From an uncultured delta proteobacterium (lineage in GTDB: Bacteria; RBG-13-61-14; DRUE01), in assembly GCA_903930515.1 (NCBI GenBank), contig CAIYYW010000395.1:1-7688 (forward strand): a DNA stretch of 7,688 nucleotides, read 5' to 3'. The notes below the pieces were generated by a model. It was not told the origin of the DNA and did not search any database. It saw only the letters and a program-made list of their open reading frames with translations. Below, piece by piece: positions 2,460-6,300 of the stretch; position 1 is the first letter of the stretch; every line of letters starts with the position of its first letter. A program made the translations under genes and the position numbers.

Positions 2460-3383
2460 ATGCGGAAGATTTTAATCGTAGATGGAGATTACGAATTCAC
2501 CCGGATGGTGATTTCCTTCCTGGAAAACGGCGAGTTTGAAGTGGCCGGCGCCAACAACCTGGCGGAGGCCAGGGCGGAAATTGCCCGCTTCAACCCGGAC
2601 TTGGTGCTCTTAAGCCGGGAGCTGATCGGCGAGTCCGGCAATTTAGTTCCGGACGGATTGGACCTGCTTAAGGAAATGAAGACGCATTCTCGCTGGAAAA
2701 AGATTCCGGTGATTTTTATGGTGAGCAGCGCGGACGGGGGGGATTTGGAAAAACTGCGGAGGCTCAAGCACAAGGCCGACGATTACACCCGGAAGCCGCT
2801 GGAAGACAATGACCTTTTGCGAAGGATTGAGAACCTGATCGGGTTTGATCCGGAGGAAACCAATACCACTTTACGGAGGGAACGGGACCAATTCGTTCAG
2901 ACCAAGGGCGCTCCGGCCGGCGCCAACCCACAATTGCAATCGGTCGCGGAGAAGGAGCTCCAGGAACTGTTCGGGAGGCTGGGGGAAGAGTCGGCCGGGC
3001 CGGACCGGGAAATAGATTTCGCGACCAATGTTGCTGAATTTTCCATAGAACAATTGAGGAACGAGCTGGAATTTATTCAGGCCCAGGTGCGGGACAAGGA
3101 TAAGCAGCGCCAGGGGATGCGGGAGAAGTGGAAACGGGCGGGCCAAACCCTGAAAGAGCATATCCTCCGGCTGGAACGCGAGCGGGGGGATTTGCAGGAA
3201 AAGCTGAACCGTTCCGAGGCCGCGGGGGAAGGGTTGTCCCGTCAAAACCAGGAGTTGCTTTCGCTTTTGGGCCGGGCCCGTGATTTTATTTCCAGCCTGG
3301 AAAAGCTCACGGAAAAATGGGACCAGGAGAGGGATTCTGCTCAGGACCTGATCCTTCAACTGGAGCGGCTCAGGAAAAAGTAG
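2460..3383 (+). CDS. Pseudo-receiver domain fused to a long coiled coil (FrzS/AglZ-like architecture)
   Basis: This is a 307-aa cytoplasmic protein. Residues 1-130 form a receiver-like domain: KILIVDGD (D8, D10), PDLVLLSRELI at 46-56, PVIFMVSS (S89) and DDYTRKPLE (K112, P113), ending ENLIGFDPE. In true response regulators the residue after PDLVLL is the phosphorylated Asp. Here it is S52, and the second acidic pocket residue is G9. Phosphorylation in the usual way is therefore unlikely. The RRLKHKADDYTRKP...LIGFDPE stretch closely resembles the FrzS receiver of Myxococcus as I remember it. Residues about 131-190 look flexible (APAGANPQ, EESAGPDRE). Residues about 194-307 are a heptad-rich coiled coil with many E, K, R, Q and L residues and no DNA-binding or enzymatic output domain. 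FrzS and AglZ share this layout and act in polar localisation and motility. A scaffold or localisation role here is inference, as there are no motility genes nearby. A possible Shine-Dalgarno sequence AGGGA lies 6 bases before the ATG. No sensor kinase is adjacent. Confidence 0.82.
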   Translation: MRKILIVDGDYEFTRMVISFLENGEFEVAGANNLAEARAEIARFNPDLVLLSRELIGESGNLVPDGLDLLKEMKTHSRWKKIPVIFMVSSADGGDLEKLRRLKHKADDYTRKPLEDNDLLRRIENLIGFDPEETNTTLRRERDQFVQTKGAPAGANPQLQSVAEKELQELFGRLGEESAGPDREIDFATNVAEFSIEQLRNELEFIQAQVRDKDKQRQGMREKWKRAGQTLKEHILRLERERGDLQEKLNRSEAAGEGLSRQNQELLSLLGRARDFISSLEKLTEKWDQERDSAQDLILQLERLRKK

Positions 3384-3450: not shown

Positions 3451-4428
3451 ATGAATAAGAGGATCGGAGTTATTATTGTCGGTCTCGCGGCCTGCCTGAT
3501 GGTTTTGGCGGGGTGCAAGAATAAAGAGGATGAAAATATTTATTACCGGGTGGGCAAGAGCCAGATCAGCAAGGACGATGTTACCCGAATCTGGATGAGC
3601 CTTCCGGACGAGATGAAGATGCAATATATGAGCAAGGCCGGCCGTCAGGAGTTGCTCAACAGCCTGGTCTCGCTGGAGCTTTTGTATCAGGAAGCCTTGC
3701 GACAGAAGCTGGACCAGGACACCATGACCAAGTTCAAGATTGAGCGGTTGGGGAAAAACCTTCTGGCCCAGGCGGTGGTGGAGCGGGCGCTGAATATGGA
3801 AGATATGCTGCTCTATTTCCAGGAGAATTATGCCCACCTGGACGCGCTCCAATTCCAGACCCGCGAGCAGGCCCAAACGGTCTATGCGCAATTGTCCCAG
3901 GGCGCGGACTTTGACATCCTCAAGTCGCGGCTTGACCCGAAAAGGAAAGACCGGGATATGGGGTATCTTAACCGCGACGACCTGATCGAGCGGTATGGGA
4001 GCGATGTTTCTTCCGCGGTGTTCGGCCTGGGCAAGGACCGGAAATTCACCGAGCCGGTGAAGACCGGGGAGGGCTTTAGCATTTTTTATGCGCGGGAAAA
4101 GCCCGGGAACCTTGACCCGCAGGGATTTGAGTCGGTCCGGAACCAGATCGTTTCCCGCAAGCAGGAAGAGGTTTACCGGGGACTGGTCAACGACCTGAAG
4201 AACCGGATCCCGGTCAAAAACAACCAGAAAAATATTGACCAGTTCATCCAGGTGGGAACGGACTGGGAAAAAGCCCGAGAGGCTGCGCCCGAGAACAAAC
4301 CGGGCGTGATCCCCGGCACGACCACTCCTCTATCAGGCCAGACCGCTCCGGGGCCAGCTCCTTCCGCAACCGTGTCGCCCTTGCCCGGGGCGACCCTGGT
4401 CCCGCTTCCCGGGGCGACCCAGAAATAA
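3451..4428 (+). CDS. SurA/PpiC-like lipoprotein with degenerate parvulin domain and Pro-rich tail
   Basis: This 325-aa envelope lipoprotein has basic residues MNKR, a hydrophobic stretch, and a lipobox L19-A20-G21-C22, so C22 should be lipidated. Residues about 30-125 resemble the helical SurA N-terminal chaperone domain (ISKDDVTRIW, LLNSLVSLELLYQEALRQ). Residues about 130-216 follow the PpiC/parvulin plan (GADFDILKSR, DMGYLNRDDL, FTEPVKTGEGFSIFYARE). However, both core histidines are replaced: Q134 stands where the HIL-type His is expected and S210 where the GYH-type His is expected. Prolyl-isomerase activity is therefore doubtful, and a chaperone role is more likely. Residues about 284-325 are a low-complexity tail rich in Pro, Gly, Ala and Thr, with PLPGAT twice. 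The tail may span the periplasm or peptidoglycan. The gene is first of three related genes, and the next starts 4 bases after its stop. It could equally be annotated only as a lipoprotein, since the domain match is weak. Confidence 0.78.
   Translation: MNKRIGVIIVGLAACLMVLAGCKNKEDENIYYRVGKSQISKDDVTRIWMSLPDEMKMQYMSKAGRQELLNSLVSLELLYQEALRQKLDQDTMTKFKIERLGKNLLAQAVVERALNMEDMLLYFQENYAHLDALQFQTREQAQTVYAQLSQGADFDILKSRLDPKRKDRDMGYLNRDDLIERYGSDVSSAVFGLGKDRKFTEPVKTGEGFSIFYAREKPGNLDPQGFESVRNQIVSRKQEEVYRGLVNDLKNRIPVKNNQKNIDQFIQVGTDWEKAREAAPENKPGVIPGTTTPLSGQTAPGPAPSATVSPLPGATLVPLPGATQK
4384..4420 (+). repeat. 13-bp direct repeat encoding PLPGAT units
   Basis: CCCGGGGCGACCC occurs at 4384-4396 and again at 4408-4420, a period of 24 bases or 8 codons. 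It lies in frame at the end of the lipoprotein gene and encodes the two PLPGAT units. It looks like local duplication in a low-complexity protein tail, prone to length change, and not a mobile or regulatory repeat. Confidence 0.7.
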
Positions 4429-4432
4429 AACG

Positions 4433-5353
4433 ATGAGCTCCCCGCGAGTTCTGATCGTCCTCTTGGGCCTGATCCTGAGCGCCGGCTGCTCTAGCGGACA
4501 TTCGGGCAAAACCGAGGCGGTGGCCCAAGTGAACCGGCACCCGATTTACCTGGCGGACTATCAGGAGAACCTGGATAAAAACTGGAAACCGGAAGCGGGG
4601 AGCGGGGTTGAGGAGCTGGGTTTTCAGCTCAAGCTAAAATGCCTGGAAGAAATGATTGAGCAGGAGTTGATTGCGCAGGAAGCCGATCGGATAGGGATTC
4701 AGGTGAGCGGGCAGGAACTGGATACGGAACTGGCCGGGCTGATTGATTTAAAAAATCCGGCGCTGGCCAAAAGCCTGAGCGATCAAGGGATCAGCCAGGA
4801 GCAATGGAAGGCCGAGGTGGGGAGGGACCTCCGGATCCGCAAGACCCTGGACACGGTTATGCTCTACCAGGTCTATCTCCCGGAACCGGAGTTGACGAAA
4901 TATTATGAGCAAAATCCTAAAAGCATGTTCCGGCCTGAGCGGGTGTATGCCCGGCAGATTTTGCTCACTGACCAGAATCAGGTTCAGGAAGTCCTGGGAC
5001 TGTTGGCCGCGGGAGCGGATTTCAAGGAATTGGCCAGGAAATACTCGATCAGCCCGGAAGCCGACCGGGGCGGAGAGCTGGGCTGGGTGGAGCGCGAACA
5101 GTTGCCGGTTTTTTTGGAGCAGGTCCTTTTCAATATGGCGCCGGGAACCGTTTCCAAGCCGATCCAGTCCCCCTTCGGCTATCATCTGCTGATGGTGGAG
5201 GTGAAGGACCAGGCGCGGCAACTGGCTTTTGAAGAGGCCCGGGATCAGATCCGGAAGACCCTGGAGCAGGAGAAGAAAGAGGAACTATATCGGCATTGGA
5301 TTCAGGGGTTGTGGAAAAAAAGCCGGATTAAAATCAACTATCAATTGCTTTGA
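4433..5353 (+). CDS. Peptidylprolyl isomerase-type lipoprotein (PpiC/PrsA-like)
   Basis: This 306-aa secreted protein has a signal peptide ending in LSAGC (C19), so it is probably a lipoprotein, although S at -3 makes the lipobox weaker than normal. Residues about 28-150 form a SurA-N-like helical chaperone region (VAQVNRHPIYLADYQENL, CLEEMIEQELIAQEADRIGI). Residues about 170-258 form a well-preserved parvulin domain: VYARQILL, FKELARKYSISPEAD, GGELGWV (213-219) and FGYHLLMVEV with H251. The first core His is Q175 (ARQILL where ARHILL is expected) and the second is kept, so activity may be lowered or altered. A helical tail (about 263-297) follows, as in SurA and PrsA. It likely assists folding of exported or outer-membrane proteins. 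The ATG lies 4 bases after the previous stop and has no clear Shine-Dalgarno sequence, which suggests translational coupling. The stop is 17 bases before the next gene. Confidence 0.87.
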   Translation: MSSPRVLIVLLGLILSAGCSSGHSGKTEAVAQVNRHPIYLADYQENLDKNWKPEAGSGVEELGFQLKLKCLEEMIEQELIAQEADRIGIQVSGQELDTELAGLIDLKNPALAKSLSDQGISQEQWKAEVGRDLRIRKTLDTVMLYQVYLPEPELTKYYEQNPKSMFRPERVYARQILLTDQNQVQEVLGLLAAGADFKELARKYSISPEADRGGELGWVEREQLPVFLEQVLFNMAPGTVSKPIQSPFGYHLLMVEVKDQARQLAFEEARDQIRKTLEQEKKEELYRHWIQGLWKKSRIKINYQLL

Positions 5354-5357
5354 GTCA

Positions 5358-5364
5358 GGGGAGG
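5358..5364 (+). promoter_or_regulatory. Shine-Dalgarno site of the SurA-like gene
   Basis: GGGGAGG followed by 6 bases (TCGGGA) precedes the ATG at 5371. It favours that ATG over the in-frame TTG at 5350, which overlaps the previous stop and would put MSQGRSG before the signal peptide. Confidence 0.8.
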
Positions 5365-5370
5365 TCGGGA

Positions 5371-6300
5371 ATGATCAAGAAGATCGGATTACTAATTTTA
5401 TCCGCGGCGCTGCTCGCGGGAATATCGGCCCGGGCGGAGTTGGCGGACCGGATCGTGGCGGTGGTGGGAAACCAGGTGCTCACCCAGAGCGAGCTGGACC
5501 AGGCCTATTCCAAAGACCTGTTGGGGATTTTAAAATCGGAAACCGGGGCGGCCGTTCCAATCTCCAGGCGCGACTACCTGGAAAAAATGATTGAAAAAAT
5601 GCTGATTGACCAGGAGGTCAAGAAGGAAGGCATTTCCGTATCCGTCCTGGAAGTGGAGCAGGCCATAGATAAAAAGAGCCAGGAACTTGGGATGAGCCAG
5701 ATGGATTTCCTGCAAGCGCTCCGCAGCCAGGGCCTGACCATGGACCAATATCGGGATAAAGTGAAGGAAAACCTGGTGCTGGGTAAATTGATTTCCAAGG
5801 AAGTCCGGTCGGAGATTGAAGTCAGCGACCAGGAAATTGCGCTCTATTACCAGCAGCGCCAGACCGAGTTCAAGAGCGCGGAAAAGATCCATCTCTATCA
5901 TTTGGTGATCCGCAAGGACCCGGACGCGGAACTGAAAATAGAGCAGCTCCGGAAGGAATACCTGGCCGGAACCCCCTTTCCGGAATTGGCCAGGAAAAAT
6001 TCGCAGGGAGAAGAGGCCTCCAAAGGCGGCGACTTGGGCTGGGTGGAGGTGACGGCATTGAAGCCGGCGCTGTCTAAACTGGTGGAACCATTGGAGCTGA
6101 ACCAGATCAGCCCGGTCTATGCGGATGAAATCGGGTTTCATTTGTTCTGGATCCAGGGACGGGAACAGGGCATCCAACAGAGCCTGGACCTGGTCCGGGC
6201 GCAGATCCGGCAGATCCTGGAGCGGAAACAATTTGACCAATACTACCAGGTCTGGCTGCAACGGCTGAAAGCCAAAGCCTACATTGAAATCAGGCTATGA
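5371..6300 (+). CDS. surA: SurA-like periplasmic chaperone / peptidylprolyl isomerase
   Basis: This is a 309-aa exported protein. MIKK plus a hydrophobic core ends in ISARA, so signal peptidase I should cut after A22 to give a soluble periplasmic protein. The mature start ELADRIVAVVGNQVLTQSELD is typical of SurA. A helical SurA-N region runs to about 165. A single parvulin domain follows at about 172-264, with H177 (LYHLVI), GGDLGWV (219-225) and H257 (IGFHLFWI). Both core histidines are present, unlike the two upstream relatives. E. coli SurA has two parvulin domains and about 428 aa, so this is the shorter one-domain form common outside Gammaproteobacteria. A helix at about 267-300 closes the fold, as in SurA. 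Its expected role is carrying outer-membrane proteins through the periplasm. The stop overlaps the pdxA start (ATGA), the same neighbour surA has in Proteobacteria, which supports the symbol. Confidence 0.88.
   Translation: MIKKIGLLILSAALLAGISARAELADRIVAVVGNQVLTQSELDQAYSKDLLGILKSETGAAVPISRRDYLEKMIEKMLIDQEVKKEGISVSVLEVEQAIDKKSQELGMSQMDFLQALRSQGLTMDQYRDKVKENLVLGKLISKEVRSEIEVSDQEIALYYQQRQTEFKSAEKIHLYHLVIRKDPDAELKIEQLRKEYLAGTPFPELARKNSQGEEASKGGDLGWVEVTALKPALSKLVEPLELNQISPVYADEIGFHLFWIQGREQGIQQSLDLVRAQIRQILERKQFDQYYQVWLQRLKAKAYIEIRL

Follow-up and report, generated by a model that had tools for sequence, protein, structure and literature searches.

A pseudo-receiver coiled-coil protein of the FrzS/AglZ clade, probably a phosphorylation-independent adaptor, from an uncultured delta proteobacterium

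The window analysed here is a stretch of 7,688 nucleotides from an uncultured delta proteobacterium (contig CAIYYW010000395.1 of assembly GCA_903930515.1), whose source would belong to the phylum RBG-13-61-14 (Candidatus Coxosiota), for which a review lists three genomes, 3.65-4.74 Mb in size (PMC11382960). The open reading frame (ORF) at positions 2460-3383 of the forward (+) strand, on which all the window features given below lie, proved to be a real gene with an intact reading frame, encoding a protein of 307 amino acids. Based on its descent and layout, this protein is probably a phosphorylation-independent, FrzS-type coiled-coil adaptor from a deep branch of the FrzS/AglZ group, with a possible connection to MglA and type IV pili. 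Its partner and its location in the cell would be those suggested by analogy with Myxococcus xanthus, and type IV pilus polarity may be the process it serves.

The phosphorylation pocket was examined in a column alignment of 43 FrzS-like receivers, 45 ordinary receivers and the solved FrzS. A previous sequence-only reading of this DNA had placed S52 (positions 2613-2615) at the site of the phosphorylated Asp and had seen G9 (2484-2486) in place of an acidic pocket residue, and the alignment supported both assignments. The S52 column holds Asp in all 45 ordinary receivers and in none of the 43 family members (Cys in 21, Ser in 10, Ala in 9, Arg in 2 and Asn in 1), while G9 occupies the second acidic, Mg-binding column, which is Asp in 40 of the 45. 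The pocket residues D8 and K112 (2793-2795) are retained. The sequence-only reading was right that K112 is kept, but S89, which it had also counted as kept, was rejected as the conserved Thr/Ser: that column (Thr in 38 and Ser in 7 of the ordinary receivers) holds V88 (2721-2723), and S89 lies one column further, where Ala is usual. Thus, the pocket has lost three of its five residues and not just two. We also considered whether another residue could be the true acceptor. D47 aligned with the conserved Asp that precedes beta3 (38/45) and D65 with that in the "DG" turn (30/45), and neither falls in the acceptor column. The canonical response-regulator set (phosphorylatable Asp, acidic pair, Thr/Ser) is therefore broken at S52, G9 and V88, and the protein, judged from these columns, is a pseudo-receiver predicted to be unable to take phosphate. 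The lack of Asp throughout the family supported the earlier view that the protein would act independently of phosphorylation. With ordinary receivers such as CheY, PhoB and DivK it shares the fold, D8, K112 and Y109, but it differs from them in lacking the phospho-Asp, the second acidic residue and the Thr/Ser.

We have then investigated the descent of the protein. To collect the family, genomes were searched with a DNA pattern covering the alpha4-beta5 segment (HxxLKxRA[DE][DE]YxxKP), of which the phospho-site is not part. The pattern was found in 6 of 386 diverse genomes, in which the reversed control pattern gave no matches, in 57 of 146 genomes of one phylum (that of G030) and in 7 of 9 genomes of another (that of G022). 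The former was taken to be Myxococcota, its FrzS being close to that of M. xanthus. The window protein and its homologue RBG_13_61_14 miss the strict pattern, with Leu and Tyr, respectively, in place of His, and were found by protein search, as were the named loci. In a maximum-likelihood tree, a branch with a support of 100/97 set all 43 FrzS-like receivers, including that of the window, apart from the rest, and the window receiver stood next to RBG_13_61_14 (100/98). When the solved FrzS was added, and ten active-site and motif columns were removed together with the loop insert described below, the clade was still recovered with a support of 100/95. This bore out the kinship with FrzS and AglZ suggested before, and by sequence the protein is a member of the FrzS/AglZ clade, sharing descent with FrzS and not with ordinary receivers. 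Two further positions fit this placement. Position 105, which precedes the ADDY motif, is basic (Arg, Lys or His) in 42 of 43 family members and Lys here, versus Gly in 42 of 45 ordinary receivers, and Y109 (2784-2786), the equivalent of FrzS Tyr102, is invariant across the family.

The layout agreed with that of the FrzS/AglZ proteins. PF00072 (Response_reg) matched residues 4-123 with 49 bits (cut-off 30.2) and was the sole Pfam domain found. No output domain was detected in the Pfam scan, as the sequence-only reading had claimed, and the NCBIfam scan returned just generic regulator matches far under their cut-offs. The protein consists of an N-terminal pseudo-receiver domain (residues 1-130, 2460-2849), a linker predicted with low confidence and containing a short helix (residues 131-183, 2850-3008), and a region modelled as a single long helix (residues 184-306, 3009-3377). 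The latter has no proline, 40% charged residues and a heptad periodicity of 0.59, versus 0.27 +/- 0.046 in shuffled sequences, with none of 2000 shuffles reaching that value. Thus, the coiled coil of about 110 residues noticed earlier is present, although slightly longer (123 residues). For the receiver we used an AlphaFold2 model of this domain on its own, in place of the full-length model, whose alpha4-beta5 region was poor. The receiver-only model had a mean predicted local distance difference test (pLDDT) score of 92.4 and the usual beta-alpha order. A structural comparison with the FrzS receiver had been proposed with the sequence-only reading. FrzS structures (2nt3, 2i6f, 2gkg, 2nt4 and two FrzS fusions) indeed made up six of the top seven matches, with Z-scores of 19.3-19.8 and root-mean-square deviations of 1.7-2.4 A, but the remaining receivers came within one Z unit of them, so that the fold by itself cannot discriminate kinship with FrzS.

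Convergence of a pseudo-receiver from outside the FrzS family on this layout would account for such tied Z-scores. A receiver followed by a coiled coil is an uncomplicated layout, and among the ordinary receivers of our tree none lacked Asp. Against this explanation, the protein still fell in the FrzS clade when the active-site, motif and insert columns were left out, and it shares the basic residue of the family at position 105, which makes convergence very unlikely. A recently decayed ordinary response regulator, having lost its Asp and output domain and serving no conserved role, was considered less likely still, and we regard it as largely refuted. The three lost pocket residues and the fairly long branch of the window receiver (1.01) would fit decay, but the reading frame is intact, the whole clade (43/43) lacks the Asp, and the sole detectable homologue in the same order, RBG_13_61_14 (genome G002; L039/L010), argues against it. 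This homologue has Ser in the same place ("LLSREL" at the phospho-site), a coiled coil, a receiver 46% identical to that of the window and the same insert of about six residues in the beta3-alpha3 loop (about residues 57-63, 2628-2648). The common Ser and the shared insert indicate that the loss is not a recent one. The two proteins differ at the V88 column, where RBG_13_61_14 has Ala, and the RBG_13_61_14 gene adjoins an HD-domain gene and a sulfatase gene. The best explanation is therefore that the protein branches deeply within the FrzS/AglZ group, whose members are pseudo-receivers with a coiled coil.

FrzS of M. xanthus (MXAN_4149; PDB 2GKG) is the closest described system. It also has a receiver fold without the phospho-Asp, the second acidic residue and the Thr, with Ala53 at the phospho-site (PMC1974792) and Ser and Gly at the positions of G9 and V88, respectively. 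It has the Tyr102 kept here as Y109, is followed by a C-terminal coiled coil without an output domain, and belongs to the same clade. The window protein differs from it in a receiver identity of 31%, in the replacement of His92 by Leu, in the loop insert, in the length of the coiled coil (123 residues versus 235-258) and in an unrelated gene neighbourhood. AglZ (MXAN_2991) is a paralogue of FrzS, and neither receiver has a functional phosphorylation site (Guzzo 2015; PMC4546325). It shares the layout, but arose by duplication within Cystobacterineae, far from the window lineage. As the Tyr is kept while His92 is replaced, the coiled coil is shorter and no tail motif could be recognised by eye, we have filed the protein in the FrzS/AglZ clade and not as FrzS.

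In M. xanthus, MglA-GTP opens SgmX, to which the FrzS pseudo-receiver then binds, and the coiled coil of FrzS is enough for polar localisation (PMC12632262, PMC11580455). By analogy, the coiled coil of the window protein may mediate self-association and placement at a subcellular site. The pseudo-receiver would then offer a fixed docking surface around alpha4-beta5-alpha5 and the neighbouring faces, and activity would be set by the state of the partner, as with the opening of SgmX by MglA-GTP, and not by a histidine kinase.

Genes compatible with such a role are present in the genome. The gene had been described as lying outside any motility locus, which is true locally, but elsewhere in the window genome mglA adjoins mglB, and pilB, pilT and pilC form an operon in that order, with PilB above its cut-off, so that MglA, MglB and type IVa pilus motors are all encoded. 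The six pattern-positive genomes all encode a close MglA (E <= 2.5e-95), which was found at that level in 28 of the 386 genomes overall, and four more family-bearing genomes carry MglA. In one genome (G045; L144:48-3061), the FrzS-like gene and one for a 345-amino-acid MglA-like GTPase share a single 3.3-kb contig at a distance of about 1 kb, with a small membrane-type ORF and a MoaB-like gene between them.

Several observations weigh against an adaptor of the Myxococcus type linked to MglA and pili. FrzS needs both Tyr102 and His92, and the His92Phe substitution abolishes S-motility and leading-pole retention (PMC1974792). Of the 43 family members, 41 have His at the His92 position; here it is L99 (2754-2756), and in RBG_13_61_14 it is Tyr. 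Hence, the function of FrzS is not simply transferable. The tail "DEKxREKxxKALxIALxLL," common in Myxococcota members, was not recognisable here when compared by eye, without a profile. No copy was detected in the same-genus genome (G001), which is a fragmented assembly, and no motility gene adjoins the window gene. The MglA co-occurrence, which favours the adaptor, gave a hypergeometric p of 8.5e-8, and of ~1e-4 when counted by family (four families), but at a cut-off chosen after the matches had been seen and with p-values not fully corrected for phylogeny; a looser cut-off of 1e-45 gave 0.002, and 0.03 by family. Finally, no MglA was found at E <= 1e-30 in two family-bearing metagenome-assembled genomes (MAGs), one of Nitrospirae (L040) and one of Nitrospinota (L041), so that the link to MglA is not obligatory, unless these MAGs are incomplete.

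Some of these points would also suit a FrzS-family coiled-coil protein with a role other than pilus polarity, such as an envelope or metabolic scaffold whose receiver is a static binding module. Besides the loss of the His92 equivalent, this alternative draws on a tight same-strand run of genes, in which the FrzS-like gene starts 9 nt after a metallo-beta-lactamase (MBL)-fold gene and ends 67 nt before a PpiC-like gene, its neighbours coding for two MBL hydrolases, PpiC/SurA chaperones, PdxA and UvrA. Elsewhere, moreover, the family gene follows a MetH-like gene or sits in genomes without a detected MglA. We consider this alternative rather unlikely, given that even within the order the gene has other neighbours and that the genome encodes MglA, MglB and type IVa pilus motors. 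A phosphorylation-independent FrzS-type adaptor is thus the reading we retain.

The FrzS/AglZ family and its dead phospho-site were already known (Guzzo 2015; PMC4546325). FrzS and AglZ have been described as a deltaproteobacterial pair, and the dead site had been noted in about 26 sequences. To this we add that the clade also occurs in several phyla, a candidate phylum among them, that the window lineage has lost the His92 equivalent, and a count of how often the family co-occurs with MglA; the phylum occurrence and the window variant look new. That such unrelated phyla carry the clade, for the most part in genomes encoding MglA, points to an older adaptor of cell polarity in bacteria. We tentatively propose, as a possibility short of an expectation, that FrzS-type adaptors are an old module across several phyla, usually found with MglA, and that the RBG-13-61-14 version has been rewired at the His92/Tyr102 switch. 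If so, Myxococcus would show just one of several output mechanisms used by the family. The members found here are also natural variants for testing which pseudo-receiver residues carry function, a question that a 2025 review of pseudo-receivers leaves open (PMC12632262).

The neighbouring genes of the window were also analysed. The upstream MBL-fold gene (1671-2450) matched best NF038231, a GPMC-system MBL hydrolase (334.6 bits, cut-off 360), followed by PRK02113 (226.8 bits). It had been called PhnP-like, and PhnP reached only 95.2 bits (cut-off 272); hydrolase of the MBL fold is accurate, while the PhnP label is a loose one. A homologue of this gene adjoins an alanine dehydrogenase-like gene in RBG_13_61_14 (G002) and in L072. 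Downstream, positions 3451-6300 hold three consecutive genes for PpiC/SurA-type peptidyl-prolyl isomerases, followed by pdxA and uvrA, and the SurA-PdxA-UvrA order is preserved in G001 and G002. The sequence-only reading had suspected a link to envelope folding. This did not hold in the same order: in G002, the FrzS-like gene (contig C76) and the PpiC-SurA-PdxA-UvrA genes (C127) lie on different contigs in unrelated surroundings, and in G001 contig C659 ends before the position of the FrzS-like gene. A conserved link to the PpiC/SurA cluster was therefore rejected, and the association is at most a local arrangement. Homologues of the two MBL genes occur two genes upstream of a FrzS-like gene in G170 (MBL1) and about 5 kb upstream of one in L072 (MBL2). 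Both families are common and the arrangement does not recur, so we have set the observation aside as evidence.

Other arrangements recur around family members. In four genomes of families f16 and f22, the FrzS-like gene directly follows, on the same strand and often overlapping, a gene resembling cobalamin-dependent methionine synthase (MetH-like; L142:30-3197, L143:255-3493, L145:5772-9136 and L146:8334-11575, with Pfam domains checked in L142 only). Three Myxococcota FrzS-like genes (L147:1097-2619, L068:6822-7697 and L072:4499-5865) lie downstream of a zf-HC2 anti-sigma-like gene, which is preceded in two of the three by an ECF sigma-like gene; in L072 a glutaminyl-tRNA synthetase-like gene intervenes. 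A conserved ORF of about 105 amino acids precedes the FrzS-like gene in the MAGs of Nitrospirae (L040:1989-2327, without a Pfam match in this copy) and Nitrospinota (L041:520-825), and in both a pentapeptide-repeat gene follows the FrzS-like gene.
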